Origin: Gilvimarinus polysaccharolyticus
GTDB lineage: Bacteria > Pseudomonadota > Gammaproteobacteria > Pseudomonadales > Cellvibrionaceae
Reading direction: 5' to 3'
Assembly: GCF_001187555.1 (NCBI RefSeq)
Contig: NZ_LFIJ01000002.1
Coordinates: 98,716-162,715, forward strand
DNA length: 64,000 bases
In this document: positions 4,301-64,000 of the stretch, piece by piece
How positions within the stretch are numbered: the stretch's first letter is position 1
How the letters are laid out: the number at the start of each line of letters is the position of its first letter
Program-made: the position numbers and the translations under genes
The notes under the pieces: model-generated
Told to the model about the DNA's origin: nothing
The model's input: only the letters and a program-made list of their open reading frames with translations
The model's database searches: none

Positions 4301-7300
4301 GCGCCCCATCCGGTCAGTTGATTGGGTGCGCTGCCCTTCAGCGTCGTACGCACTCTGCTCACTCGTACCATCCGCATAAAGGGTTTGCAGTAAATCGCCC
4401 CGGTCTGAGTATACGAATTCGGTACGCCGCCCCAGCGCATCAATCCGCGCAACCTCTAGGCCCGCTGCATCGTACTCGGTCTCGGAGACGTTATTTAACG
4501 GATCGGTCGTTTTAATCAAACGGTTTTCAGCATCGTACTCATAAGTGGTAACGATCGTTTCGGTACTACCGTCATCTAACACAATAGTTTCTGTTTCCGA
4601 TAACCGATTGCCCATACTGTCCAGCGTGTAACGTTTAACAGTACCATCGGGTTCTTCTTCATACGTAAGGCCTCGAACTGAGTAAAGTTGAAGGGTCTCA
4701 TTACCCTCAGCGTCTGAGACACTTCGGACCCTACCATCCGGGTGATACGTTAAAGACGAAACGTTGCCGGCGGCATCTTGCATGCTCGTCAGCCAGTTGC
4801 GGCCATCGTAGCTGGCGACGGCGGCAGTTGATCCGTCGGCCTCTTCGATGCGAGTAACATCACCACGGTTATTGTAGGTGTAATAGGTGGTATTGCCGAG
4901 TTCGTCGGTCTCTGAAATTTGTAAGCCGCGGCTGTCGTAAGTCCAGGATTTGGTTAATCCTAGAGGGTTGCGCTCGGTCAGCATATTGCCAAACTCATCG
5001 TAAGTACGATGAGTTGTATGCCCTAACGCATTGATTTCGGCGGTAACATCACCGCGTTTGTTATAAACATAAGTTGTCTCATGCCCCAAGCGGTTAGTGA
5101 TCGTCTCGGTTTTCGCATCAATGTCATGGTCGAATTCAATGCGATTGCCGTTGGCGTCTATGCGAGCGACTAAACGACCATCATCGTCGTATTCATTCCG
5201 TGCCACGGTAATGCCGCGAGGATCAATAATATCCGTGAGGTAGTGCGGGTTTTTAGGGCTTAGGTAATCAAACTGCATCACTTCAGCTTCCGCATTGGCC
5301 ACCGCAGCCAGATCCCCCGCTATGGAATAATCGTAATTAACTTTTTTGCCATTGGGTAGTTCTAACGCAACGATACGGCCTTGAATATCTCGGTCAAAGA
5401 AAATTTGTTCGCCACTTGAATGAACAATACCGGTATCGCTGAATGTCAGCTGGTTGTCAGCGGTGTCTTTAACGGCATGCAAACCAAAGTCGCGATTGAT
5501 GACATACCGCATACCATCTTGGGTGGTCAGGATGTAGTTTTTGGGATCGACCGCATTGGTTATATCCCCAATATCAACAAGGTTGTCATTTATGGCTCTT
5601 AGTAAACCGTAATCGGTCTGCACCAAAGTGGAGTGTGTACCGTCAAGTGGCTCCATCACCAAACTGACATCAATGGTAGGAACAAAATGCGTACATTCAG
5701 GGCTAGCTTTCGCCTTAAATTTCTCTAAATCACCGTTAGGCAGGCGAACACTAATTATAGGGTTCCCCATTGGTTTTACGCAAAAACGGGTGTTAAGCCC
5801 CGAGCCTTCTTTTTGAAACTGCCAGCCCAGGCCCACCGTACGCGATGTATGCACACGCACATTTTGATAATCCACGCTCCAGCCGTAGCCAAAATCTAGC
5901 GACTCTTGCGCTTGGCGCGAATCGTAGGTACGAGTCACGCGAATAGGAATACCGGCAAGGGGCACATGAGCGTCTTCAAAGGTGATGGAGAAATGACCTA
6001 CTTTCATTTCTCCATCTACCGCGAGAGACAAAGACTCCACAGCTTCTTTACCTTGGGTATTCCAAGCACGCAGCACTAGCTGGTACTGACCGTTTTTGAG
6101 CATGGTGGGGTCAAACTGCCCGACAACACCGTTGATTACTGGCTCAGAGCCTTGATTAAGCTCAATCAGACTGGTTGTGCCTTTTTCACGGTAATACAAC
6201 TTCCAACTCGACACATCATCGCCCAATACGCTGCCTTTAATTTTTATAGGCTCAGTCACTGTCGCGTCAAAATCTGGGAAGGTAAAGCTAACCGTTGGTG
6301 CATCCTCTGTACTGTTTGGATCACGCACAAAGAACTCGCCAATGGCGGACGCAGAGCTTACGCCATCGGTGACTGTCGCCTCTAAAAGGTGTAAGCCTAA
6401 TGTGCTAGCAGGTACCGTCGCGGTTAAGTTCGGGTTTACCGTTAAAGGGGTGCCATCTACGCTTAGCGTCGCCTGCACCGTGCCCACGGCGCCATCGGCC
6501 ACCAGCTGGACACTGACCATTTCACCTTGGTCGACGAAAGCTGGTGTGATGTTCATAGCCAGTGTCAAGGGGGCGTCTGCACTGGCCACAATCACGGTCC
6601 AAATTTGCGACGCTGTAAAGCTACCATCGGATACCAACAATCGAACATTAGCATTGCCTTCGGCTGTGGGTGTCCAACTGAGAGTCTGGCCGCTTAATGT
6701 CATGCCCTCTGGGGCGTCCAGCAAAGAGTAAGAAAGCGTGTCACCGTCGGCATCAGACGCAGCAAAAGCGTACTGGTAGGTAAAACCGACTTTTGTACCC
6801 ACTGCAGGGGCTGTGATCCATACTGGCGTTTGGTTTCCGGTCGCTTGGTTTGCCACGTTCACAACAAAAGTTTGTGTAGCTCGACCGCCACGACCATCCG
6901 TAACGCTTAGCGCAAAGTTAAACGTTCCAATCTGAGACGGGCTAAATGTTAATGTATTCCCTAAGATGCTGGCCCCTGGTGGCGCTTGATCTAACTGATA
7001 CGTTAAAGCATCGCCATCGGCATCGTTTGCCACGATGCTGTATCCCAAAGTCGAGCCTAACTGCATCTGTGTTACAGGCACGGAGGTAATAGCTGGCGCT
7101 TGATTCTCTAGCGGGTTATTAACGTAGACCGTCACGGTTTGCGTTACAGATGCGCCACGCCCATCATCAGCTTTAACAGCGTACACTTGCTCGCCCGTTT
7201 GATCTGGCTGCGGCACCCAACTCACGACACCAGCATTAAGGGTCATAGCAGTTGGTGATTCGCCCAAAGATAAACTCACCACATCACCATCGGGGTCAAC

Positions 7301-10300
7301 TGCCGCAACCTCATAGCGGTAAAGCTCGCCAACCAGCCCCTGAACACTTGGAGAGGTCAAAAACTGCGGTGCAAGGTTAGTACGAACTTCAGTAACATCA
7401 ACTGGAAACACTTGCTCGTTAGACTCTCCGTATGGATCGCTTGCTTTAACTGTAAAAGAGGCAACACTGGGTGCACCAACCGTCGCAATCCACTGCAAGT
7501 AACCTGTTCGAGGATGAATCCGAGCACCTTCAGGGGCATCCAGCAGTTCATAAGTAATTGCATCACCGTCAGGGTCCGAGGCTTGCACGCGGTAGCTTAC
7601 AGCACCTGTGTCAGATGTTGCCGCAGGAGGTGTTGTGGTAATAATAGGTGTAGAATTACTTGATGATGCAACCACGTCTATCGAGCGAGTATAAGAGATT
7701 TGAGGCGTCACATCATTCCAGTACGCGCCTATCTGTATCGAATGACGACCAAGCTGACTTGGTTTCGGTGTCCAATTCAATTCATAGGTTACTGGGTCGA
7801 GCGTCATACCTTCGGGAGCATCCAAAAGGTAAGCATAAATAACCGTATCTTTAGCAATTAAGCTAATGTCACCAACTACAGATATCGGTTCACCAACGGT
7901 TACCTGTGAAGGGAGATAAAAAGTCATAGACTGCGATTTGGCGACATCATGGAAACCCAATGTGAAATTTTGAGTCGCGGTCTCATCAGACATATCGCGC
8001 GCGGTTAACTCAGCGGTATACGCTGACGCTGTATTGTTGTTGCGCTCCATCTCTTCACTTGCGACAACGGGCTCAACCACAGCGGTGACCACATCTCCCA
8101 ACTCCGTAATTTCTAACCCCGTAAAAATTATTTCACGCTGTTCAAAGGCAGAAAACGCGGTTAGGTTCTGCTGTGCCAACAAGGTTTCTGTAGAGATTTC
8201 ACCACGATATAAAGCGACGACTCCGCCAGAAGGTAATCCTCCTTGACTAACGTTTGTTATAGTCACAGACAAGTCGATTAAACCGTCGTTAGTACGCGAT
8301 TCTCCGCGGGGATAACTGATATGTAGATCAGCTAGTTGAGTAATATCACGCAGAGGATAACTCGTTTCATGAACACCGACTTGTGAGCCAGAATACTGCC
8401 AACGTTGATCAACACCAAACTCACCGTGACGTTGATCTATATGATTAAGCGATACCCACTCGGTCTTCCATGGCCCACCATCAGCTGTAGTTAACTCAAC
8501 CGCTTGTGCGCCGTCTCCAACAAAAATACGGCCAACTTGATCACCAAACGGATCTAACAGGCCCCAAGACACCCCATCGCGAGCATTTCTAACCGGAAAG
8601 GCTGACGTTACTCCACCGTTTATAGCCGACAACAAACGTAAATCTTTATGTCCCTCTCCAGTAATCAGTATGTCACGCCGACCATCTTGATCTAAATCCG
8701 CAACCAACGCACGCCGCTGAGTATAATCAGTTAATAGGTCGTTATCCCAAATAACATTGCCATCTAGATCATAAAGGGCCACATCGGCCGCTGAAAAAAT
8801 AGATTGTGTGCCGTCGCCTAAAAAGTCATCTATCAGTAATGGGCCAAAATTCGAAGGGGCCTTAGTGCCCCTCAAGGTTTTCACGAGATTCCCTTGCGCG
8901 TCTACAATATTGAGCACATTACTGTTAAAGCTTGTTTTACTCAGCACTATAAGTTCTGGCAAGCCATTGCCGGTAATATCGGCGCTCGTTATATAAGAAT
9001 CGTAAATTGTGAGCCCTTCTAAGCCTGGGATAAACCAAAGCAAACTACCATCCTGACGACGAACTTGATCAAGATACGCCACCTCCAACTGCCCATCGCC
9101 ATTTAAATCTAGAGCGTGAGGTGCGCCAGAGTACGCCCGGTCAAATAAATTAATAGAAGGAAAAAATCTCCATTTTAAACTGCCATCAAAATTGAAAACA
9201 GAATCACCAAATAGAATGTCGGTTTTCCCGTCGCGCTCCAGATCACTAAGCACGATACCTGTACCGCTGTAGCTATGCTGTGATACAGCATCACGACTCT
9301 GCCATTTGAAATTACCGTATCCGTCTACGGCGGTAATACGATACTCATTATCTACATATATCAAACTCGATTCGCCGGCGCCGTCTAGGTCAGCCATTGC
9401 CGGCGATACATAATCCGAAAGAAACTCCACGCCTTGATACTGCCATGCAAGAGTATCGCTATAGAGATCGTAAGCTTTTATTACGTGTGGAGAGTAAGAT
9501 TGATAAACAAGCAACATGTCGTCATCGTGATCCAGCGTGCCGTTTCCGTTATCATCTCGCATCGGCCCAATCAGATACTGCCCTTGACTACCGTATATAT
9601 AATTTTTATTACGTAAGGTTCGCTTCGCCGCTAGCACAGGTGCGTCCGCCCCTGCTGCAGAAAAATGAGGGTAAACTGGAAGCCCTGCTTCGTATGAGTC
9701 TAAATTAGCGGGAGTGGTTTTGGCAGACAGCCGCCCACTCTTGCCAAACCCTCCATTTACGGTTAAATCAAAACCTATTAGCGCACTTTCAACAGCCCAG
9801 CTGATCAAGTCGTTTAGATTTGAGTCTTCCGCTTTAAAACTGTAAGAGTATCGATTATTTGTATCCGCCACTGTCGGTGGCGTAGTCGTAATGACCGGGG
9901 GGAGGTTAGGTGTGTCATACATTACACCAAATGAAAATGCCTGAGAGTAACCAAACTGATCTATCACAGCCAAGGTCACCAGATTGGATCGCGTATAATC
10001 CAACTCACCTGAGTCACTCAGATCCCAATGCAGTTGGTGAGTCAACGCATCAAAGCTCATGCCTTCTGGCGATTCGAGCAAGATATACTCTATCTCAGCC
10101 GCCGGATCAAACGCTAAATTCAAATCGATAACGTTGTTTGCTCCCGAAACAGCGCGTTCCCACGGCAAAGTGACTGGCATCAACTCCATCGTCGGAGTCT
10201 GATAGCGTCCTTCGACATTTAAATTAACGGTAAATACTTGAGGCTCACCCACCAGATCTTCTACAGAAACCGTTAATGGCCAGAGCCCTTCAGTTTCTGG

Positions 10301-13300
10301 TGGCGGCGTTATCTTAATGGTGCCGGTAAGTGGGTCTAACTCAAAAGGCAGAGCCGAGCTGGCAGAGATAAAATGCGCATCACCTATGTCTGCGTCTGAA
10401 AACTCTAGCTTTAATTCTGTAGTTTGGTTGATGGCTAATAAGTAATCGTCTTCCGTTATAGGTACCGGAAGCTCATTGACGTCCTGACTCACGACACTCA
10501 CATACTGCCGCGCAGAAGCGCCAAACTCATCGGAGACAACTATCTGCGCAATTGGAAGCAACAAATTATTATTTGTTTGATCGCATTCGTTATCACTGCT
10601 ATGAATCAGCTCTACCCGAAGCAGATCGGGTAATTCGCCCTCAGGCAGCGGTATTTGTAGTGTTTGATTCGAAGATGAGGTCAACGCTAATGTCGATGTG
10701 TACGACGCAATTAATGTGTCATCGGCCACAGATAAAACATGAACTTCCATAGACTCAGGAGACTCAGTTAACCCGCGGTTTGCCACCGTCACCTGCAAGC
10801 TTTTGGCACTCTCTTGCTCTACCACTAAAGCCGACTCAACGACTAAATCAAACTGTTCGAAAGGCCCTGTTTGTTGCGTTACACCTTCAAACAGTTCGCG
10901 GACCAATGCACCGAACAACATCTCCCGTTCAAAATCAGTGCCTTTATTTACAAATTTCCAATCCCATACCGAGCCACCCGACATTAAAGCAGTTTCAAGG
11001 TAAGGCTTGCTATAAGAAAAATTACTAGAAATTAACGGGTCAAATATATCTTCTAAAGTTTTGTCAATCTCACAAGTTGATAGACGCCCTTCTGGGCTCA
11101 GTGAGTAAACATGCCCCTTGGCATTTAACCCCATAAATTTATCGCCGTTGGTACACTCCATGAGCGTGTACACAATGCCATGAACTGCCACGCCTGAAGC
11201 CTGAACCGCCAATTGGTGATTCGTAAGAACTTCGGGGTTGTTTTGCAAATTAGCAGCGGTATAAGGAGAACCCTGGGCAGGTTCATCTGCAACCCAGATA
11301 ATGTTACTGGGCAACTCTGAGCGAAAAGGATAATCCTCAATCGTCTCTTCAAGCGCCAAGTTCGCGTACTCAGAGCCATAGGCGTTTCTACCGCCCCACG
11401 TTCGATTAAAGACCTCGCTGATGGAAGTTAATAATGATTCGTCGTCACCAAATTTTTGCGGGCGACCGAAGCCTGACACACCAAAAAGATTAGGAGAGTT
11501 GCCAACGCCTACCCCCTCAAGCTTGACCTCTGCGTTTAATTGCGCCAATGCATCTGACACTAAAGGCCAGAACGGTGTATTGGAGCCCGAACCGTCCAAC
11601 AACATTACAGCATCCATGGCCTCTGGCACTTGATTCTGTCTAGAGACAGGCAACTCACAATATTTATTAGGTGCAAGATTACTATTGACCCATTCATGCG
11701 AACCGACCCAGCTGATCACGCCAGTTTGCGAATCAACACTCATACCTTCGGGCGCTTGCACTAAACCGTAAGTCAATTGGTCGTCATTAAGGTCGCTAGC
11801 AATTACTTGGTAGGAGTATGGGGCGCCTTCTTTCACTTCGTTTATCGGCGTACTGCTAATCACTGGGGCGTAATTAACACGATTAATGCTGATAACAAAC
11901 GCCTGGCTATCACTAAGACCCGTGCTATCTGTCACCTGAACAGTGACCGGATAGTCTCTTTCGGTAAGGTTCCCTATGTCCCAAAGAATTTGGCCGGTTG
12001 TAGCTTTAACCGTCATGCCGCTAGGTGCTTCGGTGAGGCTGTAAGTCAGTATATCGCCCGCGTCTGGGTCGGTAGCGTTTACCGTATAACGGTATGTAGT
12101 TTGTGTGGCGGCGTGAAGCGTGGGCATTGAGGTAATAACAGGTGCCTTAGGGCCATCTGTTACTGTGATATTAATAGTGGCAATTGCGGAATCTACCAAA
12201 CCGTCATTGCTGACAAAAGTAAAGCTGTCATCGCCGACAAAACCTACATTAGGAGTGTAGATTAGATTTCCCCCTGTCCCACTCAGGCTGCCGTGGGACG
12301 ATTCCTGAACGACGGAGAAACTTAATGTATCGCCATTAATGTCACTGCCCACCAAGGTGATCGCTTGGGCTTCACCCTGCACTGCGGTTACGTTGGCGCT
12401 GTTGGCGGTAGGAGCATCGTTAGTAGTTTTTACGGTAATGATAACCGTCGCTAACACTGAGTCCGATTCACCATCGCTCGCAAGATAGGTAAACGTGTCT
12501 ACCCCTAAGAAGCCTGCATTGGGCGTATAAGTTAAATTGGGTAGATCACCGCTAAGCTGGCCATTTTGGGGAGCGTCCACGATTACAAAAGTTAGTAAAT
12601 CGCCATCTTGATCACTGCCCTTTAAGGTCGCCTCTACCGCCCTTCCTGCAATGGTATTAACGCCGAAGTCTTCAGCGATTACTGGCGCGCCCCAGGCAGA
12701 GCCAAGATTGTCAAAGCCCGGCAAATGCAATTGCATGGTGCCACCCCAAGACTTAGCAATTATTTGGCCTTTAACTGAGCCCGCGGACTGGGAAATATGC
12801 GCCCAAGGTGCCAATATTGACCCTTCGATTTCAATGGTTTTAAACGTAAGACGCTCGGCCTCGTAAAAGTTATACAAGGTGCGTGAACGATGTGGAACCA
12901 TATCGTTCATCTTCAGGTTTTCTAAACCTATATCCTCACCCGATATATTGAAAACCAGATAAGCGTCTTCGGGGATACAGCTAATTTCCAAAGTGTGAAC
13001 GGCCAAAAGCTGGGCGCCGTCTAACCGAAACACCTGCAGCGGGCTTTCACAGTCCCCATGCAAATGCACTCCACCTTCTTGGTAGGTAACAGTGGAGCTA
13101 GGCTCTGCGGTGCTGATCTGCTGCGATAAACCTCGAAAATATACCCCAGCTTGCTCGAAGTCGATGCCAACTTCGGCGTTATCGACCAAGGCGCCTTCCA
13201 TTTTATTACGAACACTTGTACCTACTCCTGCCGAAGAGCCGCCTACCAGCACATTGCCGTAATACACCCGACCACTTGGGAGGGTAAGATCACCGCCCAC

Positions 13301-52271: not shown

Positions 52272-52599
52272 AACATGCGGAATGTGCGCCCTAAACATTG
52301 GGGCGCATGTTAAAAACATGCCTCGCTCTAGACAAACATCAATTAGGGTAAAATCTTGATTTTTGCTCTAACAAAAATCCGGCTTAGACAGGAATAATAC
52401 AGGCTAAAACAACCTCTTATTTTTATGTTAAAGGCGTGACTCTTTTGATTTTGATGACATTACACTAAGAAGAGGCAAGAAGAATTTTATTTTAATAAGA
52501 TTCAAATAAAAAACCCGCCGAAGCGGGTTTTTTATCAACGATATTTTATTTTTCCACTAACCGAATGTTGTCTATATAGTAAAGCCACTGCCTGAACGG
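52272..52599. other. Gap between lipoprotein gene and CRISPR array
   Basis: These 328 AT-rich bases hold no gene. A 7-bp GC stem with flanking wobble pairs (52281-52311) lies just past the lipoprotein stop but lacks a T-run; an AT stem is at 52358-52379; the strong terminator is at 52508-52533. The part next to the array is its trailer. Confidence 0.6.
52508..52533. terminator. Bidirectional terminator at the distal end of the CRISPR array
   Basis: A perfect stem, AAAAAACCCGC / GCGGGTTTTTT, with a CGAA loop has T-runs in both directions. It can end the precursor crRNA transcript on the minus strand, 66 bases past the last repeat, and the lipoprotein transcript on the plus strand. Confidence 0.93.
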
Positions 52600-54581
52600 C
52601 TAATAATCCCCGCACCTGCGGGGAACGGTTTTGCGTTACGTAACGCGAAAATGCTTGCATCGGTTAATCCCCGCGCCTGCGGGGAACGGCAGCTCTAGGT
52701 GTTCGACCCGTATTGATTCGGCGGTTAATCCCCGCGCCTGCGGGGAACGGACAAACATAAACAACAATTTCGGAGGCCTAAACGGTTAATCCCCGCGCCT
52801 GCGGGGAACGGTTTACTTCGGATCAATTGCAGAAAGTTAATCACGGTTAATCCCCGCGCCTGCGGGGAACGGTCAATATTCATGTGACTATAGATTGCCT
52901 GATGCGGTTAATCCCCGCGCCTGCGGGGAACGGCTAAACGCAATATCCGTTGTAGATGCGAACGACGGTTAATCCCCGCGCCTGCGGGGAACGGTTCACC
53001 AAATTTAATACGCGGCGTTCAGAAATCGGTTAATCCCCGCGCCTGCGGGGAACGGGCGTAAAATGCCCCTAGCTGCGTGGGAGCTGTACGGTTAATCCCC
53101 GCGCCTGCGGGGAACGGTGGCTAACATGTATCGTCTCTAGCAGCTCAACCGGTTAATCCCCGCGCCTGCGGGGAACGGCCGGCCAAAGGCGGTGTAGGGA
53201 TCGCCGCTACCGGTTAATCCCCGCGCCTGCGGGGAACGGTTTTTTGCCGTCTGCTGTGTCCATCTCCCAAACGGTTAATCCCCGCGCCTGCGGGGAACGG
53301 TCTTATTTTTGCTCCTATCGCTGTTTTTCTCGCGGTTAATCCCCGCGCCTGCGGGGAACGGTTAAAGTACAGGGTTTATTTTTAATCTTTACACGGTTAA
53401 TCCCCGCGCCTGCGGGGAACGGGTAATAGCCGATAAACGGAACTTCCGTCCAATCGGTTAATCCCCGCGCCTGCGGGGAACGGCGCATAGGTGGGTGGAA
53501 TGTCCACGTTGCACCCGGTTAATCCCCGCGCCTGCGGGGAACGGCGGGTACGCTAACCGCTCGTCGCAGTGTGTTGCGGTTAATCCCCGCGCCTGCGGGG
53601 AACGGCGCCTATCGCGCTGGCCAGAGCGCGCAATCAGCGGTTAATCCCCGCGCCTGCGGGGAACGGAATATCGACTGTATCGCCGATGTACATTAGCCCG
53701 GTTAATCCCCGCGCCTGCGGGGAACGGTTGCCCTGCCCTCTGTATTAAGATAAATCCGTCGGTTAATCCCCGCGCCTGCGGGGAACGGCGAATGGTTGCT
53801 CGTTATCGTCTCCGTGATTGCGGTTAATCCCCGCGCCTGCGGGGAACGGAAAACTGGTGGCGCGGGGCCGCACTCAACTGGCGGTTAATCCCCGCGCCTG
53901 CGGGGAACGGGGGCGAATCGTCGCCAGCTCCACAGCAGCCACAGGTTAATCCCCGCGCCTGCGGGGAACGGTCTGGGGCGCACATAGCGACCTCGTCCAT
54001 CGCCGGTTAATCCCCGCGCCTGCGGGGAACGGTGACACGTTAGTTATACAGGCTAGGTCTTCTTCGGTTAATCCCCGCGCCTGCGGGGAACGGTGCAGCA
54101 CAGGGGTATTACGGTGGGGCAGGTGCGGTTAATCCCCGCGCCTGCGGGGAACGGTAAGTTTTAACGGCGGTGACACGACGGTAACACGGTTAATCCCCGC
54201 GCCTGCGGGGAACGGGTCCTGCACGCGTAGCCAGTGTTTTTTTGCCGCGGTTAATCCCCGCGCCTGCGGGGAACGGCCACGCGGTAGGGATTAAATCGTC
54301 GGGAATTGCGGTTAATCCCCGCGCCTGCGGGGAACGGAATCGCAAGCGTTTGTAAATGTTGGGCTAAAACGGTTAATCCCCGCGCCTGCGGGGAACGGCA
54401 CGATCTCGGCAGTGTAGCCCATCGATATTTCGGTTAATCCCCGCGCCTGCGGGGAACGGATCGGTGGGGTCGATTGCATAGAGTTGCGTGCCGGTTAATC
54501 CCCGCGCCTGCGGGGAACGGTTGCTTTGCCGAATCGCGGATTAAGTTGGCCGCGGTTAATCCCCGCGCCTGCGGGGAACGG
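52600..54581 (-). CRISPR. Type I-E CRISPR array, 33 repeats and 32 spacers
   Basis: Thirty-three 29-bp repeats recur every 61 bp. Read on the minus strand they begin CCGTTCCCCGCAGGCGCGGG and end GATTAACCG, with the hairpin CCCCGC/GCGGGG. Spacers are 32 nt except one of 33 nt (53056-53088). The repeat at 52600-52628 has four changes (three near its plus-strand start and one A for G in the stem loop), marking it as the leader-distal end. The repeat at 53943 starts with A instead of C. The other repeats appear identical. The array lies directly beyond cas2, so the new-spacer end is at 54581. Cas6e would leave an ATTAACCG 5' handle. I saw no spacer matching the rest of the window by eye. Confidence 0.98.
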
Positions 54582-54638
54582 ACTAATTGTAACCACTTGT
54601 TTTTAAAGAGCAAATCACATAGTGAAAATTCTACGGAT
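54582..54638 (-). promoter_or_regulatory. CRISPR leader
   Basis: The 57 AT-rich bases between the cas2 stop and the first full repeat are the leader, and its promoter may extend into cas2. AATCACATAGTGA (54613-54625) matches the IHF consensus at all but two fixed positions, and on the opposite strand orientation; this is a weak candidate only. IHF bends the leader during spacer integration in type I-E systems. Confidence 0.7.
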
Positions 54639-55853
<1,215 letters not shown>

Positions 55854-55864
<11 letters not shown>

Positions 55865-56687
55865 TAGGTTTGTCGCCCTCCAACTGCCGCTGAGAATATG
55901 CTCTGGTCAAAACGCTCATCTGACTAATGGCCAGTGTGTTCAGCTTTTGCAGGCGCTTGTTCTGCAGCATACCCTCAGCAATATAGTGAGCATTCATGGA
56001 CTCAAGGTTGGCCAAACACACCAACTGATGAATGTTGGCGTGGTCGCGAATATTGCCTTTTACGTCTGGGTTTTGATCCCGCCATTGCTTTGCTGTCATG
56101 CCAAACAGCGCCATATTCAACAGGTCAGCCTCAGTCGCATAAACCAAACTAACCTGTTGCGCAGTCAGCGTATCTGGCACCAAATTTTCTTTGATGGCAT
56201 CGGTGTGGATGAGGTAATTAACTTTGGCAAGGTTGCGACGAATATCCCAGCCTAGCTGCGAGAACTCTTGCTCTTTAAGCCGCTGAAACTCCTTGATCAG
56301 GTACAGTTTAAACTCGACCGAGATCCAACTGGCAAACTCAAAGGCAATATCCTTTTGCGCATAGGTGCCGCCATAGCGCCCGGCCTTGGATATCAACCCA
56401 ACGGCACCCGTCGCCTCGATCCACTGCTTTGGGGTAAGGGTAAAGCTATTAAGCCCTGCCTGTTTTTTAAACCCGTCGAATTCGACGGGTTTAAAATTCG
56501 GGTTATTTAACTGCTCCCAAATACCCAAAAATTCAATAGTATTACGATTTCTGAGCCAATTACGGATTAAATCGTCTGTTCGTTCCGCATTTTTGTACCG
56601 AGCAATATCCGTAATACAGATATACTCCAGCCCATCTTTAACGCTGGTCGCGATATCTTGTTCGAGCACCTCAAGCTTTGCTTTCAT
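55854..56687 (-). CDS. KilA-N-domain protein embedded in the cas operon
   Basis: The 277-residue protein has an N-terminal KilA-N domain (about 20-135): EYICITDIARYKNAERTDDL, IEFLGIWEQLNNPNFKPVEF, GLNSFTLTPKQWIEATGAVG, GRYGGTYAQKDIAFEFASWI and EFKLYLIKEFQRLKEQE. KilA-N domains are DNA-binding modules first seen in phage and viral proteins. The C-terminal half is helical and holds ATEADLLNMALFGMTAKQWR and RDHANIHQLVCLANLESMNA, features of this bacterial family whose role is unknown. GGAGG lies five bases before the ATG. It lies between cas6e (25 bases upstream) and cas1 (11-base overlap), a place where type I-E operons normally have no gene. It may regulate the locus or act in defence; no catalytic motif is seen. 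Confidence 0.9.
56465..56496. repeat. Perfect 32-bp palindrome inside the KilA-N gene
   Basis: Sixteen bases on each side of the centre (between 56480 and 56481) are fully complementary; the middle reads CCCGTCGAATTCGACGGG flanked by TTTTAAA and its complement. It encodes FKPVEFDGFK (residues 65-74) on both strands. As RNA it could form a long hairpin; as DNA it could be a protein-binding site. Confidence 0.95.
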
Positions 56688-56712
56688 GGTACCTCCGTGT
56701 AATTGTTAACCT

Positions 56713-57396
56713 TTAAATCCTCCTAATCATCATCAGTCCGCAGCCAAAGGCTTTAGCGCGGCCAACGCCCTGCGTCAACTGCCGTAAAAAACACTCAGGG
56801 TCAGTCACGGTTAACGTTCCCTCGTAATTAACTGAGGCAAACTGAATGGGTTTTGCTCGGCCACTGTTACGAGCTGATTTATAAACTTGATGCTGCTGGT
56901 GTTCAGTCACCTCGGGAGCGGTGGCAAACGCCACCCCCATACGCGCTTGTCGCGCCGGCTCCATCAGCCAATCTTGAGCAGCCTGATACTGGACTTGTGC
57001 GACATCGACGTCGGGCATTCCCCGCGCTTGCATTTTAGCGTGCATCAATACATCGACTCGCCGCCCGCGCTGGCCAGGTTTGTCGTGTTTTAACATACGG
57101 GTTGGGTTGGCTCGCAGTGTATAGCCTAGTTGATCACCCGTTTTTAACTTGGGCTGAAAGGGCTTGGATAAAACTTGAACACCCTCAAACTCAGCGATTG
57201 GCTCAGACGCAGACAAAAGGTAGTAGCATGGGCCACTTTTTCCTTGCTCGTAACGGAAAAGAAAATTTCGGTTTAGCTGATCGGGGAATAATTGCCACAG
57301 GAGTTGATGTTGGGCATAAGCATCGCCTTTATTGGCTCTCTCGGTTAGATGAGCAATCAATAAGCCTTTAGTCGGCAGGACTCTCGTTAAAAACAT
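56713..57396 (-). CDS. cas6e: crRNA-processing endoribonuclease Cas6e
   Basis: Cas6e cuts the precursor at each repeat hairpin and stays bound to the crRNA in Cascade. The 227-residue protein has the family start MFLTRVLP, a His30 in AQHQLLWQLFP at the position of the catalytic His of the Escherichia coli protein, the internal YTLRANPTRMLKHDKPGQR, and the C-terminal Gly-rich loop GVGRAKAFGCGLMMIRR. Its ATG overlaps the cas5e TAA by one base, with AGGAG upstream. Confidence 0.97.
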   Translation of the reverse strand: MFLTRVLPTKGLLIAHLTERANKGDAYAQHQLLWQLFPDQLNRNFLFRYEQGKSGPCYYLLSASEPIAEFEGVQVLSKPFQPKLKTGDQLGYTLRANPTRMLKHDKPGQRGRRVDVLMHAKMQARGMPDVDVAQVQYQAAQDWLMEPARQARMGVAFATAPEVTEHQQHQVYKSARNSGRAKPIQFASVNYEGTLTVTDPECFLRQLTQGVGRAKAFGCGLMMIRRI

Positions 57397-58124
57397 TACT
57401 CACTCCTTTTCTGTCGGGCGCTGTGAACCAACCGCTTTTCAAATTGCCAGCGCAACCGGGACGCGGGGTTATCCCAGCGCTCGCTTGTTTCCGATGGCGG
57501 CAAGTCAGTTTCTAGCCCATCATCCCACTCATAGTGTATCGTCTGGCCATACAAAACTGATTCGGATCGAGCCACGGGGGAAATAGGAAACTGATAACTC
57601 TCAAGCGCTTGGTGGACATCGCCTGCATCTAGTAGTAACGGATAAATCGGCGTGGCCAGTGGGCAGGACTTTCGTCCTAAATAAAGTGGAAATACCGGCT
57701 CGCTCAAAGCATCCCGAATTGCCTCCAAAGTGTAATGCGAGTCGTCTCGAAGTGTCAGCGCCACAAGCCAATGCCCATCGACTCGATAATCCCGCGTGGA
57801 CAATATTGTATTAACATTGCGCGGGGTATTTTCCAACTCTGCTTTACGATGCGGCCAAATGGCTTTTTTGTCGGCGCTCGGCACTTGGGTTGTGTGATAG
57901 TCGCGAAGCAAGCGACCATCCGACTCGGATTTGATCATCATGCCGATGCTGCTATTCAACCGAGCAATTTCATCTTCCTGTTCACGACGCAAACCCAAGG
58001 CGGCACTCAAAAGCCCAATAACCGCCGAGCGTGAAGGTGCAGGCCTGGTAGATCGAACACCGCCCACGGCGGTACCTCCCCAGCTGGCCATGGCGCCATA
58101 AAGACGAAAAGTTAAGCACTGCAT
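57396..58124 (-). CDS. cas5e: Cascade subunit Cas5e
   Basis: Cas5e caps the 5' handle of the crRNA in Cascade. The 242 residues start with the RAMP-type strand LTFRLYGAMASWGG, followed by VGGVRSTRPAPSRSAVIGLL and the typical VLYGQTIHYEWDD near the end. It is followed directly by cas6e (one-base overlap) and preceded by cas7e (eight bases). Confidence 0.96.
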   Translation of the reverse strand: MQCLTFRLYGAMASWGGTAVGGVRSTRPAPSRSAVIGLLSAALGLRREQEDEIARLNSSIGMMIKSESDGRLLRDYHTTQVPSADKKAIWPHRKAELENTPRNVNTILSTRDYRVDGHWLVALTLRDDSHYTLEAIRDALSEPVFPLYLGRKSCPLATPIYPLLLDAGDVHQALESYQFPISPVARSESVLYGQTIHYEWDDGLETDLPPSETSERWDNPASRLRWQFEKRLVHSARQKRSE

Positions 58125-58132
58125 AGCGCCCC

Positions 58133-59170
58133 CTAGGCCTGAGTGGCCACTTGAATAACCGATGGTAAACTGCCCTCACCGGTTGACGCATTAAAGCTAA
58201 CGCGCTGATCGGCGCAGGGGCCATACACGGTATCAAAGTGCTTGGCTTGTGTTTCGAGCGCCGCAATCGCCGATGGCAAATAGTCATCGCCTTTTACCGG
58301 TGCAAGAAAAGCGGCCGACAGGCTACGGGGCTGTTTTTTGCCCGTTTCCAGCATCATGTAAGAGGCGTAAGCGTGTGAGCCAAAGCTGTTTTGCTTGCCT
58401 TTGGGTGAGACGGTGGCAATTGCCTCAATCATGGCGGCGACCGCTTTGTTAACGAGCTCTTCATCACCATTGAGTGCTGTTAGCAGAGCTTCACGCTCGA
58501 TGCACACGTAGCTGTAAAAAACGGCTGCAGCGAATCCAGTCTCGCCAATATGTGCTGCGCCTCGATCATCATGGTCAGCATTCAGGTCATCGACAGCGGT
58601 AAAATAGTCGTCTTCAACCGTCACGCCGTGAACACTCAGCGCGTGAGCTACTTGGCAAGCTGCCTCGACATTAAAATTGGCAGAGTCCGCTAGCATTCGG
58701 CCAAACAGTGCGATATCCACTGCAGCACTCTTTTTTAGTAGACCTTTTAACTCGGCCTCTTCAGGTTTGCGATTTTCATCGGCTAGTGTAGCCACTAGAT
58801 CGTCAACCGCCTGCCACTCCTCTGGGCTGAAAAAAACCAACTGTTGCGTCGTTACTTTGCCTTTTTCTACTTTGCCAAAAATCCCAGCAATGGCAAATGC
58901 CCAATCTTCAGCTTTTTTTTCATTAACGCCTTTGTCCAGCAACGATTTTTGTACATGTTTACCGATATCTTTGGTACGCGTACCTAGGTGATTGCGCAGC
59001 GCCTCTTGAAATACATCGGAGGTGCGCCAATGCCTTTTTAGCGACTGCGAACTGACCCGCAAGCGCTCAACACCGCCCATCATGGCGGTTTTGGGCCGCC
59101 CAAGATCGTCTCGGTTTAGGTTGGCAGGCGGGTATGATGTTAATGTATGAATTTGAATAAAACGTGACAT
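58133..59170 (-). CDS. cas7e: Cascade backbone subunit Cas7e
   Basis: Cas7e (Cse4/CasC) makes the six-subunit backbone that wraps the crRNA. I start at ATG 59170, with AAGGA seven bases upstream, because MSRFIQIHTLTSYPPANLNR is the conserved N-terminus; 345 residues result. The RVSSQSLKRHWRTSDVFQEA, GRMLADSANFNVEAACQVAH and GAAHIGETGFAAAVFYSYV blocks are typical. The open frame reaches 59377, but that region is the end of cse2 in another frame. Confidence 0.97.
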   Translation of the reverse strand: MSRFIQIHTLTSYPPANLNRDDLGRPKTAMMGGVERLRVSSQSLKRHWRTSDVFQEALRNHLGTRTKDIGKHVQKSLLDKGVNEKKAEDWAFAIAGIFGKVEKGKVTTQQLVFFSPEEWQAVDDLVATLADENRKPEEAELKGLLKKSAAVDIALFGRMLADSANFNVEAACQVAHALSVHGVTVEDDYFTAVDDLNADHDDRGAAHIGETGFAAAVFYSYVCIEREALLTALNGDEELVNKAVAAMIEAIATVSPKGKQNSFGSHAYASYMMLETGKKQPRSLSAAFLAPVKGDDYLPSAIAALETQAKHFDTVYGPCADQRVSFNASTGEGSLPSVIQVATQA

Positions 59171-59195
59171 AACAAGATCCTTATTGTCTTTTATA

Positions 59196-59777
59196 TTAAG
59201 AAGTTTTAGCAGTTGCGTAATAGTCCATGGCCCAGCGCAGCACTTGGCGCTTTGCCGGGTTAACTTCTGGCACAGAGGATCGGCTTTGCCAATACCAGTG
59301 CTCGACCTCCTGCGCCAGCGCCTGTACGGAAACAGTATCGTCAATTTGGTGCAAAATACGACGTAAGCGTCGGGCAAATTCAGCAGTGTCTCGGGATTTG
59401 ATTAGCTGCTGAAAACGCAACGTCGACACCCGAGGGCGGTCACTACCTTCACCGGCTTTACGCGCCATGGCTTTGGCTAGGCTCAACTCCGAATCTTTAC
59501 GAACTGACGCCAGCACCCACGTAATCAAGGCGGCAACCTCCATGTAGGGTGGTGAGCGTTTTTCTTCCGGCATAAATTGCCACAGCGCCTGAAACGGCTC
59601 AGACAACATTACTTCATCCAAGCTTTTACAGCGTTTCAGTATAGCTTTGTGTGCTGTTGGCAGCGCCTGTAACTTATTACGCTGACAGGTATCGCTGTTT
59701 ACTAGGCGATGCCACCATCGTGCGTATAATCCCAGTTTTTTATCGGCACCTTGTGATTGATCTTCTTCCGTACTCAT
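59196..59777 (-). CDS. cse2: Cascade small subunit Cse2 (Cas11e)
   Basis: Cse2 (CasB) forms the dimer that stabilises the displaced strand in Cascade. The 193-residue helical protein has RRLRRILHQ near the end, AALITWVLASVRKDSELSLA and VSTLRFQQLIKSRDTAEFAR, matching the family. Its ATG overlaps the cas8e stop by four bases, so the two are translated together. Confidence 0.96.
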   Translation of the reverse strand: MSTEEDQSQGADKKLGLYARWWHRLVNSDTCQRNKLQALPTAHKAILKRCKSLDEVMLSEPFQALWQFMPEEKRSPPYMEVAALITWVLASVRKDSELSLAKAMARKAGEGSDRPRVSTLRFQQLIKSRDTAEFARRLRRILHQIDDTVSVQALAQEVEHWYWQSRSSVPEVNPAKRQVLRWAMDYYATAKTS

Positions 59778-61369
59778 ACGCTAATCACTCCCCTTTTATC
59801 GAGCCCATGTTTTTGCAAATACGCTTTGTTTAATTTGGTCCACTCAAGCGAGCGGCGTGCACGCAACTTGCGCTCTATATGTTCAGTCTGGCTCGCATCA
59901 CTCAGCACCAAGGCATCAAATAATGACAGAGCGCGTTGCTTTAACACCCCCACCCAATGCTGGCAATTTTGAGCATTCAGTTTTTGCTGGCCGGATTCAA
60001 TATCTTTTTTGAGCTGGTCGACCATTGCATAAAAATCTTGCTCAGTAGCCGTCCAGAACTGTTCGTCGATAAAACCCAAGTCGCCATTACTATCGCCATC
60101 CCCCAGCCAAGCGTTTTTGCAGGCCCGACGAAGCGCTTTCCTGTGATCGTTGGCGACTTCTACCTGACCACCGACCTCTTGTACAAACAGAGGGATAAGC
60201 TCCGCCGACATTGATAGAAATGGCATTCTGGCTTCGTGCCAAGAACGCGCTTTCATGTTGTCCATATCAAAACCAAACACCCACACGCTCAGTTGATCTT
60301 CCAGCTCCAGCTCTTCCTCCAGAAGCTCTTGATTCTTGGTCATACGGGCGACCACCTTAGCCGGAAGGTGCCCCTCTCCGCTGTCCTCAAATAAAAACTG
60401 ATGCCACTGCCGGTAACCAATACCGCCGGGCTGACCTTTACTAGAAAAGTGCTCTAACTCTGGCTTTTTAGGGTCGTAGCGATAAGGCGTCAGCGGGTGA
60501 GCCCAAGTGCCGCCGTAATTAGCGCCGTAGTTTTTGGTCCGGTAGCTCGCTACCGTAATCTCGGTGTGCTCATGGGTCAGGTCACAGCGCCCCGCCTCGC
60601 TCGGTTCTAGGCGGATTCGGCGCGGCATAGCCCAATACTGTTGCAAGGTATGTACGCCTTCATCGTTCAGATACACTTCGGTGCCTTTTTCTTTACTGGT
60701 GCGAGTAGGTGCCAGCCAAGGAAAAACGCTTTCGTCGTATTTAAGGGGGCGAGGTAGGTCGCTATCGGTGGGCGCCACATTGAGCCACAAACGGCGAAAC
60801 AGGCTTAGTGATGAGTCGCTAGAAACTACCAAGGTAGTCAATGGGCCTCCGCCGCGCAACCCGGTCCGATGGCCCTGCCCTCCTGCGGGCGCATTGATTT
60901 GTAGTGTAAATAACGCCATAGCCGCCATAACGGGCGACAAGGCCTTGACCTGCCCCCGCTTAATAAAGTGATCGGTATTTAACTTAAGGGTATTACCTCC
61001 GGGAGCATCGATCAGCAGACTCGATACATCGACGTTTGTTCCGTCATCCAATGGCTCTAAATCTTGCATAAAACAAGGGCCATCACCAAACAGCTCGAAG
61101 GCGTGCTCAATTTTGCCAAGTGCTGTGGCCAGCGCTTCAGAAGAGGGCGAGCCTTCATACCACTCCAACCATTCGCTCTCATCAGCTGGCGCAAAAGCCG
61201 TTTGCAATATACCGACCAGAAACTGCCAACCAGCGCCGTAAAAATCCTGGCGGGGTAAGACGATATCCCGAAGATCCTCTCGCCCAAGCTCTTTTAATGG
61301 CAAAGCCACAATCTCACCGGACGCAAGCCGAAACTTGAGCCAAGGATCAATACATAGGTTTAGATTCAC
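59774..61369 (-). CDS. cas8e: Cascade large subunit Cas8e (Cse1/CasA)
   Basis: Cas8e recognises the PAM and recruits Cas3. I place the start at GTG 61369, five bases after AAGGAGG, so the product is 531 residues and begins VNLNLCIDPWLKFRLASGEI. The N-terminal IVALPLKELGREDLRDIVLP, the central VSSLLIDAPGGNTLKLNTDH and the AMALFTLQINAPAGGQGHRT block are characteristic of the family. The open frame reaches back into cas3. It sits 13 bases past the cas3 stop. Confidence 0.95.
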   Translation of the reverse strand: MNLNLCIDPWLKFRLASGEIVALPLKELGREDLRDIVLPRQDFYGAGWQFLVGILQTAFAPADESEWLEWYEGSPSSEALATALGKIEHAFELFGDGPCFMQDLEPLDDGTNVDVSSLLIDAPGGNTLKLNTDHFIKRGQVKALSPVMAAMALFTLQINAPAGGQGHRTGLRGGGPLTTLVVSSDSSLSLFRRLWLNVAPTDSDLPRPLKYDESVFPWLAPTRTSKEKGTEVYLNDEGVHTLQQYWAMPRRIRLEPSEAGRCDLTHEHTEITVASYRTKNYGANYGGTWAHPLTPYRYDPKKPELEHFSSKGQPGGIGYRQWHQFLFEDSGEGHLPAKVVARMTKNQELLEEELELEDQLSVWVFGFDMDNMKARSWHEARMPFLSMSAELIPLFVQEVGGQVEVANDHRKALRRACKNAWLGDGDSNGDLGFIDEQFWTATEQDFYAMVDQLKKDIESGQQKLNAQNCQHWVGVLKQRALSLFDALVLSDASQTEHIERKLRARRSLEWTKLNKAYLQKHGLDKRGVISV

Positions 61370-61382
61370 TGATACCTCCTTA

Positions 61383-64000
61383 TCAATCATTATTTTGTAC
61401 ACCGTTCGTGCTGGTGCTGCCCCACCCCTCTTGCTCCGAATAAGGAGTGGCCTCGACATCCGCCACCCGGGCGTATTTCGCCCGTCGGTGGCGCAATACA
61501 AACGCCTCCCTTTCATCTTCGGCCAACATGTGCAGCTGACTGAGCTTCTTACTGGACAACTTGACCACACTCAACTCCACCGAATGACTGGGAGCCTCGA
61601 TATAGGGCTCGTAGCCCTCTTTGGTGCGGCGAACTAAGACTACCTCTTCTGACTCATCGCCAAGGCGTGTACCGATATCTACATTATCTTCTCCCCACGC
61701 CCGATTGCTCTCGTAGGTGTAACCTTGTTCCAATACTAGACGATTAAACTGTCCTTGATTGCTGCTGGCCCGGACCAGGCCGCTGTATTCCAGCCCGGCC
61801 TCATCAAACGCTTCGGGGACGGTTACATCCTCGCCATAAACCGACTCGATCATGGTGCGTGACTCTTCCGGCAATCGTATCTCTGCTGCGCCCCGTAAAT
61901 ACTCCATGGTGCGCCAGATACGGCCTGGACGTTTATAGACATACTGGGTGTTGGGGGAATGACACTTTAGCCAGTCGGCTTTTGGGGCCGAATCCCATTG
62001 CGGCGCATGGATCAGTAGTTTGGGACGTGCGCGACCGTCGGGCTGGTCGGATACAGGTGCCCCATATTGATCTCGGGCGTGACGGTGTAGCCGCCCGGAA
62101 CGTTGAACCAAATCATCAATCAGGCACAAATCGCTGATCATTACATCTGCGTCCGCGTCGAGACTTTCTTGAAATACTTGAGTCGCTATTAACACCCGGC
62201 CCGCTCGCTGTTCTTGCGTTGAGGATTTGCCAAAGTGTTGCATCACCCATGCCTCACGATCTTTGCGATGCTGTAGTACAAACCGACTGTGAAACAACTG
62301 ACAATCTTTCGGGTTCGGCAAACGGTCGCGAAGCTGACGGTAAGCCGATATGGCTTCATCCACCGAGTTGCGAATCCAGACGGCACATTGCCCGCGCTCT
62401 ACCGCCGCCAACAAATGCTCCACGCACTCGGCTTCACTGTGAATAAAATCAACGGCAACTCTCTTTTCCGTCCCCTCCCGGCAAGGCAGGCGCGCCTCTT
62501 GGACAGCATCGTCACCACTAACCCGAGTGGCTAATGGAAAATCGTCGGGCGCTGTATGTTGCAATAGCGCCGGTGACTGACCCAACGTTTGCTGCCAAGC
62601 ATTAACCAACCGTTGACGTCGCGCTTGGGGTAAGGTGGCCGTTAGCATAATGATGCTGCCCCCTTGGCTCGCATGCAGCCGCATTACATGCTCCAACAAA
62701 GCCAGCATGTATTCATCGGCGGCGTGCACTTCATCAAGTATCAACACTTTTCTGTACAAACCCAAAACCCGCAGCGATTGGTGTCGTTTGGGTAAAATGG
62801 CGAGCAATACCTGATCAATGGTTCCTACCCCTACCGGGGCCAACAAGGCCTTCTTGCGACTGTCGGCCAGCCACTGGCTGCAATGCAGTGAGGCGGTGGC
62901 TTCACCTTTTTCGTAGGGTTGATCAGTACTACTTTCACCCAGCATTGCCTCCCGAAACCGGTCGTTCATATTCCGCGCGCCATGGGCCAAAACAATACTC
63001 GGCACAGCGTTCTCTGACCCTGCCAACATTTCTTGATAATGCTTCGCTACTCGATCAAACATGGCATTAGAGGTCGCCATAGTAGGCAAACCAAAATATA
63101 AGCCTCGACCAGCGCCCGAAGCCAACAGTCGGTGCGCCAATGTTAACGCGGCCTCGGTTTTACCCGAGCCTGTAAGGTCTTCCAAAATAAATAACTGCGG
63201 CGATGCGTTCACGGACACTTTCTCTGCATAAGATTGCAAGGGCGAGGGGGCAAAAGGAAACAGCGATTGAAAACCATTAAATGGCTGTACGGTTACCGGC
63301 TCAAACACTTCGGTTTTGGTGAGTGCTCGACTAGCCGCTGGCAAGGCCACTTGATGCCAATACTCTTCAAGTGCAATGGGCTGATCGTGATAAGTGAAAA
63401 TATCGCTATCAGAGCCCACCCAATCACAATAAGTCCCCAGCCCCGCCAACAACCAGCTAACTTGTTTTAAACGATCTGAGAATACGTCGTCGGCCCAACA
63501 GCTTGTGGGGAGTTCAGCACCCATCAGACTTTGACAATCTTTAACCCAAGCCTCAGCGGCGGCAACATCTTGCGAGGTTAACTTGAGCGTATCTTTGATG
63601 GTTGTTTCTTGACGTACCGGCCTGCCGTGATGGCCCCAAAAAATCCCGAGGAAGAACTGCAATCGTTGTTTTTCTCTCAGGGTACTGCCTGTTAGTTGAG
63701 CAGTTTTTTGCACTTTCTTCCAGACGTCATACCCTAGCTGATCATGACGACCTCGCTTGCCATCGTAGCTCACACCATTAGGCAGATCGATTTTCACGAG
63801 ACCCGAGGACGCAAAAACACTCTGAAAAGAAGCGGTCATTTTTCCTAGATCATGCAACAGCAAACCAAACAAAAACAAAGCGCGAAACTGCACTGGCTCA
63901 ATATTGAGAAAACCCGCCAAGTCGGCCTCTAGCGTGGGACAACTATCCAGTACCCGGCTCCCAACCGCCGCCACATCCATAAAGTGATAAGGCAACAGGT
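61383..64000 (-). CDS. cas3: CRISPR nuclease-helicase Cas3 (5' end outside window)
   Basis: Cas3 nicks and degrades the DNA strand displaced by Cascade. About 872 residues are visible, missing only the N-terminus: the frame is open to the edge, and LLPYHFMDVAAVG is internal HD-domain sequence rather than a true start. The HD nuclease residues are in YHFMDVAAVG, LLHDLGKMTASFQ and FWGHHGRP. The helicase has LTGSGKTEAALTLAH (Walker A), LDEVHAADEYM (DEVH box) and MLTATLP. An RIGIHQ-like segment near SGRLHRHARDQYG (QRSGRLHRH) is the last helicase motif. Confidence 0.96.
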   Translation of the reverse strand, partial: LLPYHFMDVAAVGSRVLDSCPTLEADLAGFLNIEPVQFRALFLFGLLLHDLGKMTASFQSVFASSGLVKIDLPNGVSYDGKRGRHDQLGYDVWKKVQKTAQLTGSTLREKQRLQFFLGIFWGHHGRPVRQETTIKDTLKLTSQDVAAAEAWVKDCQSLMGAELPTSCWADDVFSDRLKQVSWLLAGLGTYCDWVGSDSDIFTYHDQPIALEEYWHQVALPAASRALTKTEVFEPVTVQPFNGFQSLFPFAPSPLQSYAEKVSVNASPQLFILEDLTGSGKTEAALTLAHRLLASGAGRGLYFGLPTMATSNAMFDRVAKHYQEMLAGSENAVPSIVLAHGARNMNDRFREAMLGESSTDQPYEKGEATASLHCSQWLADSRKKALLAPVGVGTIDQVLLAILPKRHQSLRVLGLYRKVLILDEVHAADEYMLALLEHVMRLHASQGGSIIMLTATLPQARRQRLVNAWQQTLGQSPALLQHTAPDDFPLATRVSGDDAVQEARLPCREGTEKRVAVDFIHSEAECVEHLLAAVERGQCAVWIRNSVDEAISAYRQLRDRLPNPKDCQLFHSRFVLQHRKDREAWVMQHFGKSSTQEQRAGRVLIATQVFQESLDADADVMISDLCLIDDLVQRSGRLHRHARDQYGAPVSDQPDGRARPKLLIHAPQWDSAPKADWLKCHSPNTQYVYKRPGRIWRTMEYLRGAAEIRLPEESRTMIESVYGEDVTVPEAFDEAGLEYSGLVRASSNQGQFNRLVLEQGYTYESNRAWGEDNVDIGTRLGDESEEVVLVRRTKEGYEPYIEAPSHSVELSVVKLSSKKLSQLHMLAEDEREAFVLRHRRAKYARVADVEATPYSEQEGWGSTSTNGVQNND

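Follow-up and report, generated by a model that had tools for sequence, protein, structure and literature searches.

Among the closest described systems is BstA, a KilA-N(-like) abortive-infection protein with which prophages defend against phages (Owen et al. 2021, PMC8585504). According to the accessible part of that paper, the bstA locus itself contains a DNA element, aba, which protects the replicating element that carries it and is cognate to each BstA variant. It is 63 bp long, lies at the start of the gene (29 bp upstream plus the first 34 bp) and has terminal direct repeats. CrePA modules, as far as the accessible text of a review goes (PMC12737573), likewise have a KilA-N protein adjoining a CRISPR system. 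PDC-S22 (PDLC04962) is a candidate defence family of PADLOC-DB whose PADLOC entry consists of a name only; the published passage that names it, in the part available to us, deals with the co-occurrence of systems and mentions neither a palindrome nor a protein-DNA code.

The window, i.e. the whole stretch of 64,000 nucleotides from Gilvimarinus polysaccharolyticus analysed here, contains a complete type I-E cas operon on the minus strand. A KilA-N gene lies in it together with eight further genes, all of type I-E (cas3, cas8e, cse2, cas7e, cas5e, cas6e, cas1e and cas2e). The features, in window positions, are as follows.

55854 to 56687, minus strand: KilA-N gene (277 amino acids; PADLOC family PDC-S22; predicted DNA-binding protein with a DdrC-like fold), from ORF, Pfam, PADLOC and structure model
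56465 to 56496, no strand: perfect 32-bp intragenic palindrome, TTTTAAACCCGTCGAATTCGACGGGTTTAAAA, half-site type ACCCG, codons 64-75, from sequence and alignment
56550 to 56579, minus strand: predicted recognition helix, codons 37-46, in which D38, D39 and R42 covary with the palindrome half-site, from covariation and model
56713 to 57396, minus strand: cas6e, from profile matches
57396 to 58124, minus strand: cas5e, from profile matches
58133 to 59377, minus strand: cas7e (ORF as listed; real start probably internal; overlap with cse2), from profile matches
59196 to 59777, minus strand: cse2 (cas11e), from profile matches
59774 to 61570, minus strand: cas8e (ORF as listed; real start probably internal; overlap with cas3), from profile matches
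61383 to 63995, minus strand: cas3 (ORF as listed, running to the window end; matches start at profile position 16 or 27), from profile matches
54938 to 55864, minus strand: cas1e, with an 11-base overlap with the KilA-N gene, from profile matches
54639 to 54941, minus strand: cas2e, from profile matches
52600 to 54581, plus strand: CRISPR array of 33 repeats of 29 nt and 32 spacers, from repeat analysis

The initial annotation had described an intact 277-codon KilA-N gene with GGAGG upstream, 25 bases from cas6e and overlapping cas1 by 11 bases, and the sequence confirmed every one of these points: the ORF starts with ATG, contains no internal stop codon and has GGAGG immediately 5' of it. 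Co-transcription with the operon is likely because no promoter-like site was found between cas6e and the KilA-N gene by a consensus scan. Such co-transcription follows from the embedding and is not specific evidence about cas1. The genome holds a single copy of the family (search at E up to 0.01). An Rfam scan gave merely two sub-threshold matches, both near the array end; that to rsmX (52508-52631, minus strand, 31 bits against a gathering threshold of 56) is probably due to chance.

The protein matched Pfam KilA-N (PF04383) over residues 20-139 with an E value of 4.5e-21 and 75.1 bits, against a curated cut-off of 23.8. PDC-S22 was the sole family matched in the PADLOC scan; it shares the KilA-N domain, and the match was full-length (E 8.1e-133, residues 3-271 of 277 onto positions 5-275 of 281). 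PHROG 2657, 'transcriptional regulator', was matched as well. The predicted structure (mean pLDDT 93) resembles DdrC of Deinococcus radiodurans, a protein described as DNA-binding whose solved structure is a dimer, and the DNA-binding domain of Mbp1. Identity to these two is about 12-17%, the rmsd to DdrC is high, with the domains differently placed, and a common fold shows no function; a sequence search against solved structures found no relative. The protein is predicted to be a DNA-binding defence protein of the candidate-defence family PDC-S22, and it is probably dimeric, given its palindromic site and the DdrC-like fold.

PDC-S22 was found in 21 of 369 genomes of the same class (E up to 1e-20), several copies being truncated or containing stop codons. 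Genome contigs yielded at least 568 confirmed relatives and viral contigs 101, from each of which 80 were retrieved; relatives were also present in 32 phage records (11 spanning at least 80% of the query) and 27 plasmid records (23 spanning at least 80%). Among the genome relatives listed, many bacterial phyla and some archaea are represented. It occurs in phages, satellites, plasmids, restriction operons and at another cas position, namely between cas3, which it follows directly, and the Cascade genes in a spirochaete type I-E operon (L043). In that stretch (near 7272 and 9998-10837) an extra palindrome of TATGGTG type precedes cas3. Neighbours were identified for representatives (20 proteins), in a layout that leaves out eight of the 80 loci, where the gene frame was not called. 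They include hsdM and hsdS (L061), hsdR and hsdM-type genes (L089, L097), a type III restriction-like combination of methylase and ResIII protein (L038), and a helicase-PLD protein with an Eco57I-type methylase (L083). A second defence gene had been one option in the initial annotation, and this option counts among its supported parts. A preprint by Payne and others is said to treat defences embedded in immune systems.

The informative feature of the gene, absent from the initial annotation, is the palindrome within it. It is perfect, centred on GAATTC and located about 190 nt into the gene. A palindrome at the same codons was present family-wide, with at least 10 of 18 symmetric positions in 100 of 101 aligned copies, the exception being L166. 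This copy and two others (L172, L173) form a KilA-N group with 3 of 18 symmetric positions, i.e. a natural control lacking the palindrome. In 113 copies with mutual identity under 88%, the palindrome was 16 pairs long, as pair 16 was Watson-Crick in 92 copies and pair 17 in 12, and pairs 6-10 covaried. Compensatory change was counted in 100 of these copies (the 13 left out include L166): 95.9% of cells were paired, and double-change cells numbered 181, versus 46 in shuffles (none of 500 reached 181) and 23-52 in slid controls. Two coarser covariation measures came out close to the shuffles (both-side-changed pairs 7 vs 5.9; further pair types 25 vs 23.4). Codon usage was constrained at the same place, as the top eight codon-biased columns of 210 scored all lie within the palindrome; the phenylalanines F65 and F73 are encoded by TTT and F70 by TTC. 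The genome contains one such site only, no array spacer shares nine or more bases with it, and a search of 28 Gb of E. coli genomes with the CCCGTC 32-mer gave no match up to E 1. A dispersed repeat was rejected on the single site in the own genome and on the same-class sites, which nearly all lie in KilA-N genes.

The half-site type was then compared with the residues encoded outside the palindrome, using 2427 pairs from 100 copies with overall identity removed. Correlation peaked at residues 39, 38 and 42 (r 0.45, 0.31 and 0.31), about 6 and 4 standard deviations above the other columns outside the palindrome (mean r -0.001, sd 0.077). All three residues are located on helix 37-46 of the structure model, which is predicted to be the recognition helix of a helix-turn-helix. 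Helix TDDLIRN goes with half-site ACCCG or TCCCG, TDYLIQN with TCCCA, TDHVIQN with ACCCC, PADIIKN with ACTGG, AADIIKN with AGTGG and GSALIEK with TTCCC. Within the clade of copies from the cas6e-cas1 junction, the half-site type switched along with the helix: the window has TDDLIRN and ACCCG, Halopseudomonas TGVIIGN or TGIIIGN and AGTCA, and Marinomonas AAHIIGN and AGTCC. In a leave-one-out test with neighbours less than 65% identical, the residue triple gave the correct inner three bases of the half-site in 80% of cases, compared with 14% by chance and 30% from the overall most similar protein. The triple had been picked on the training data. Of 28 held-out copies, 14 carried a known triple and all 14 were predicted correctly (2.2 expected, either half counted), while the other 14 had unseen triples and gave no prediction. 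Because residues 38, 39 and 42 predict the half-site, the protein very likely binds the palindrome inside its own gene.

Palindromes of this kind also occur outside the gene, in phages but not in them alone. The core CCCGTCGAATTCGACGGG was found in 45 viral stretches, two of them within a KilA-N gene. The wider family core occurred in at least 120 stretches of viral contigs versus 4 for permuted arms, and the general pattern TTAA-N5-TCGAATTCGA-N5-TTAA in at least 120 versus 6 for an altered core, each set being counted against one altered pattern. Among the matches listed, 55 of the 90 occurrences of the wider core past the first 45 were perfect palindromes, and deduplication left 74 standalone and 17 in-gene sites. 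In the same listed matches, 92 of 148 standalone half-sites (62%) fell within the 43 in-gene half types, compared with 9% (maximum 16%) after letter shuffling; identical halves were present in 17 of the 74 standalone sites, most being heterotypic and often hybrids of two types. Stop-free frames of at least 150 codons surrounded 28% of the listed standalone sites versus 68% of random sites in the same contigs. Of 173 distinct standalone sites listed, 65 fell in open frames 90 codons or longer, which in some cases are surely not genes. In the 369 same-class genomes, the general pattern occurred in eight, in all eight inside a KilA-N gene or remnant; the CCCGTC core occurred in six (four in a gene or remnant, one just upstream, one standalone). 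This comparison of phage and chromosome concerns the ratio of standalone to in-gene sites, not density per base.

Those named phages in which a site lies outside the gene have Streptococcus, Staphylococcus, Lactococcus and Lactobacillus as hosts. The 32-mer matched nine plasmid records, one with a site about 100 bp from a KilA-N gene. Phage records of CTGGTC type were streptococcal in 19 of 29 cases, six of these 19 being satellites matched inside a gene; the KilA-N gene of the Streptococcus satellite L029 is itself of CTGGTC type. The arm ACGCC, meant as a negative control, also matched 27 phage records. Of these, 22 were staphylococcal, and the matches included the KilA-N gene of phage EW, which has a CCG-type site; the BLAST counts are therefore not type-specific. 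In eight annotated phages, standalone sites lay in gaps between late genes, behind the lysin gene, at the end of a dUTPase gene and beside unnamed genes.

Several side observations were made on these viral stretches. In Staphylococcus phage StB20, two sites that differ from each other stand in tandem, and the first, judged by eye, is imperfect. A palindrome lies within a phage DUF1064 gene (L212:3301-3636, by Pfam match, and L267, L277), where the peptide resembles that of KilA-N. What seems to be one phage gene (L304, L366, L396, L405, L436) has a palindrome at residue 266 with arms that vary by contig. In L246, L252, L257, L293 and similar contigs, two palindrome-like stretches stand in tandem in one frame (SDSTGL..PSNSMGL), resembling a small array.

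Our preferred explanation, which we hold with moderate confidence, is that the protein is a PDC-S22 defence protein whose cognate in-gene palindrome serves as a self-immunity element, that phages imitate this element, and that the gene is an accessory member of the type I-E operon. Its first step is strongly supported by computation: residues 38, 39 and 42 read a half-site that is present twice as the in-gene palindrome. Since the recognition helix reads the in-gene half-sites, the palindrome would be a cognate site that travels with the gene. The defence, titration and immunity roles are inferred by analogy. The protein would act against invading or replicating DNA, and a cognate site on the replicating element would titrate it or switch it off, so that a prophage, satellite or plasmid carrying the gene would be spared and others would not. 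The standalone palindromes present in gene-less phages would then be counterfeit immunity tags, and a hybrid site could serve against two resident KilA-N types. In the window, the gene would be an accessory defence gene that sits in the type I-E operon in order to be expressed and stands outside spacer acquisition. Against this explanation, most standalone sites are heterotypic, which is non-ideal for decoys of a homodimer, and sites without the gene are also present on plasmids and in one of the 369 same-class genomes. Applied to the family as a whole, PDC-S22 would be a widespread password immunity, with a palindromic password in the gene, specificity set by three helix residues, and phages carrying copied or hybrid passwords; as part of the same reading, the gene would move among CRISPR, restriction, prophage, satellite and plasmid loci. 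We consider this wider statement to be evenly poised between right and wrong.

Set against the accessible description of BstA and aba, the likeness lies in a KilA-N(-like) protein, a cognate DNA element in its own locus and variation of the element between variants; it is a likeness to the published description, and cognacy is read here by covariation only. Here, in contrast, the element is a 32-bp palindrome at codons 64-75 instead of the aba layout at the gene start, the protein-DNA code is readable, phages have standalone copies, and the gene is found inside CRISPR and restriction operons. The system was not classed as a BstA member, since its element has a different position and form.

The main rival, which we rate as unlikely on balance and which could hold as well, above all in chromosomal copies like that of the window, is autoregulation. 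The palindrome would be an intragenic operator at which the protein blocks transcription of its own gene, a portable control for a promoterless embedded gene, and the phage sites would be decoys or unrelated operators. This is compatible with the preferred explanation and draws on the same covariation evidence for binding, as well as on the embedding of the gene in many operons with short gaps. Moreover, chromosomal copies in CRISPR and restriction operons keep the palindrome although self-immunity is needless there, so autoregulation may be its role in them. Four loci (L008, L023, L076 and L079) have further palindromes about 40-95 bp before the start codon (two in L008), as an operator might, yet these differ in type from the in-gene one. 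The standalone sites of the eight annotated phages are not at KilA-N promoters, and others lie inside unrelated genes.

It is improbable that the phage palindromes are targets which the KilA-N protein of a satellite or host binds in order to interfere, e.g. near capsid and scaffold genes. Two standalone sites do lie directly upstream of scaffold-annotated genes in annotated phages, and in a streptococcal satellite the KilA-N gene sits between the repressor and integrase genes. A harmful and non-essential target should nevertheless vanish, yet the sites occur in unrelated phages, at unrelated places and even in the DUF1064 gene.

The initial annotation favoured a role in spacer uptake, as a regulator or a partner of Cas1-Cas2. 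A KilA-N gene also stands at the cas6e-cas1 junction in the four closest of the 80 relatives retrieved from at least 568 in genomes (L030-L033, 76-83% identical), which come from Halopseudomonas formosensis, H. xiamenensis, an Alteromonas MAG and Marinomonas vulgaris, with gaps of 19-34 bases before the KilA-N gene and -1 to 2 bases behind it. Together with the window genome, this makes five genomes of four lineages, and the window gene is therefore not a lone insertion. The only pair with a computable dS gave dN/dS 0.06 at dS 1.38. Close Cas1 relatives without the gene were found as well (L454, L474).

A tree built from 45 of the 101 aligned proteins groups the junction copies and the window copy in one clade (support 100/99), which, with the overlap with cas1, speaks for the adaptation reading. 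Against it, only one of 30 same-class Cas1e loci, the window's own, has a KilA-N gene at the junction, falling short of the regular presence beside cas1e expected of a type I-E component; the same family resides in restriction operons, phages, satellites and plasmids; and the Cas1 proteins of carriers are interspersed with those of loci lacking KilA-N. Because of this mixing, the gene may have been gained or lost more than once, or transferred between type I-E loci. A Cas1 adaptation partner was rejected as the main reading on the other operon contexts, the scarcity in type I-E loci and the mixed Cas1, and we regard it as very improbable.

The annotation's premise of an empty cas6e-cas1 junction in standard type I-E operons proved wrong for this class, since 10 of the 30 loci have another Pfam-matched gene there (PIN, DUF3368, DUF5615, Gp49, HipA_C or nucleotidyltransferase; L456, L457, L460, L464, L466, L469, L471, L472, L473 and L475, with the cas6e call in L466 being a 57-bp match only). 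In two more (SEC-C in L453, Phd/YefM in L462) such a gene lies upstream of cas1, with cas6e outside the retrieved stretch. The genes at the ten junctions are presumably of toxin-antitoxin kinds, some judged by Pfam name, and the junction thus appears as a recurrent site for small genes of these kinds in the class.

That the palindrome is a roleless by-product, either a mobile palindromic element or the outcome of template switching at quasi-palindromes, is highly improbable. In favour of this view, one KilA-N remnant (L022, G162) contains a 44-bp perfect palindrome in which the left arm corresponds to the right flank, as template switching predicts, and two loci (L056 and L070) have N-terminal pieces in tandem, the piece in L070 fusing half-sites of two types at the centre GAATTC. 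A mutational process, however, cannot make the arms track residues 38, 39 and 42, and the general pattern is not dispersed across the 369 same-class genomes.

A hairpin in the messenger RNA is extremely improbable. A 16-pair stem would form in the transcript, and over all 16 pairs the coding strand shows more G-U than A-C mismatches (81 vs 33). Yet the outer pairs 14 and 15, in which a lysine or arginine codon makes up the right arm, account for 58 of the 81 G-U mismatches, and pairs 4-13 give 16 G-U versus 25 A-C. This count and the covariation with the DNA-recognition helix, which points to DNA, led us to disfavour the RNA reading.

A CrePA-type module, in which a KilA-N toxin would be repressed by the CRISPR effector via a crRNA-like CreA RNA, is barely worth entertaining: CreP is typically a KilA-N-domain protein according to the accessible text of the review (PMC12737573), but here repeat and consensus scans found no degenerate repeat resembling CreA close to the gene (in 54561-64000, array excluded, the best candidate agreed at 18 of 29 positions) and no promoter-like site directly before it, and no spacer matched the rest of the window under the filter of our script.

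A full-text literature search, covering a partial set with few subscription papers and no preprints as such, found no report of the palindrome, the code or the phage counterparts. The PDC-S22 family and the idea of KilA-N immunity were known already. If the preferred explanation is true, the BstA-aba idea would widen from Gram-negative prophages to many bacterial phyla and some archaea, and DNA elements of about 30 bp, not proteins, would act as phage counter-defence. Phage escape from a given KilA-N defence would be predictable from a short palindrome, so that the immunity type of the host and the counter-type of the phage would both be legible from genomes. CRISPR operons could, moreover, accommodate an independent defence gene at a junction that is otherwise home to genes of toxin-antitoxin type.
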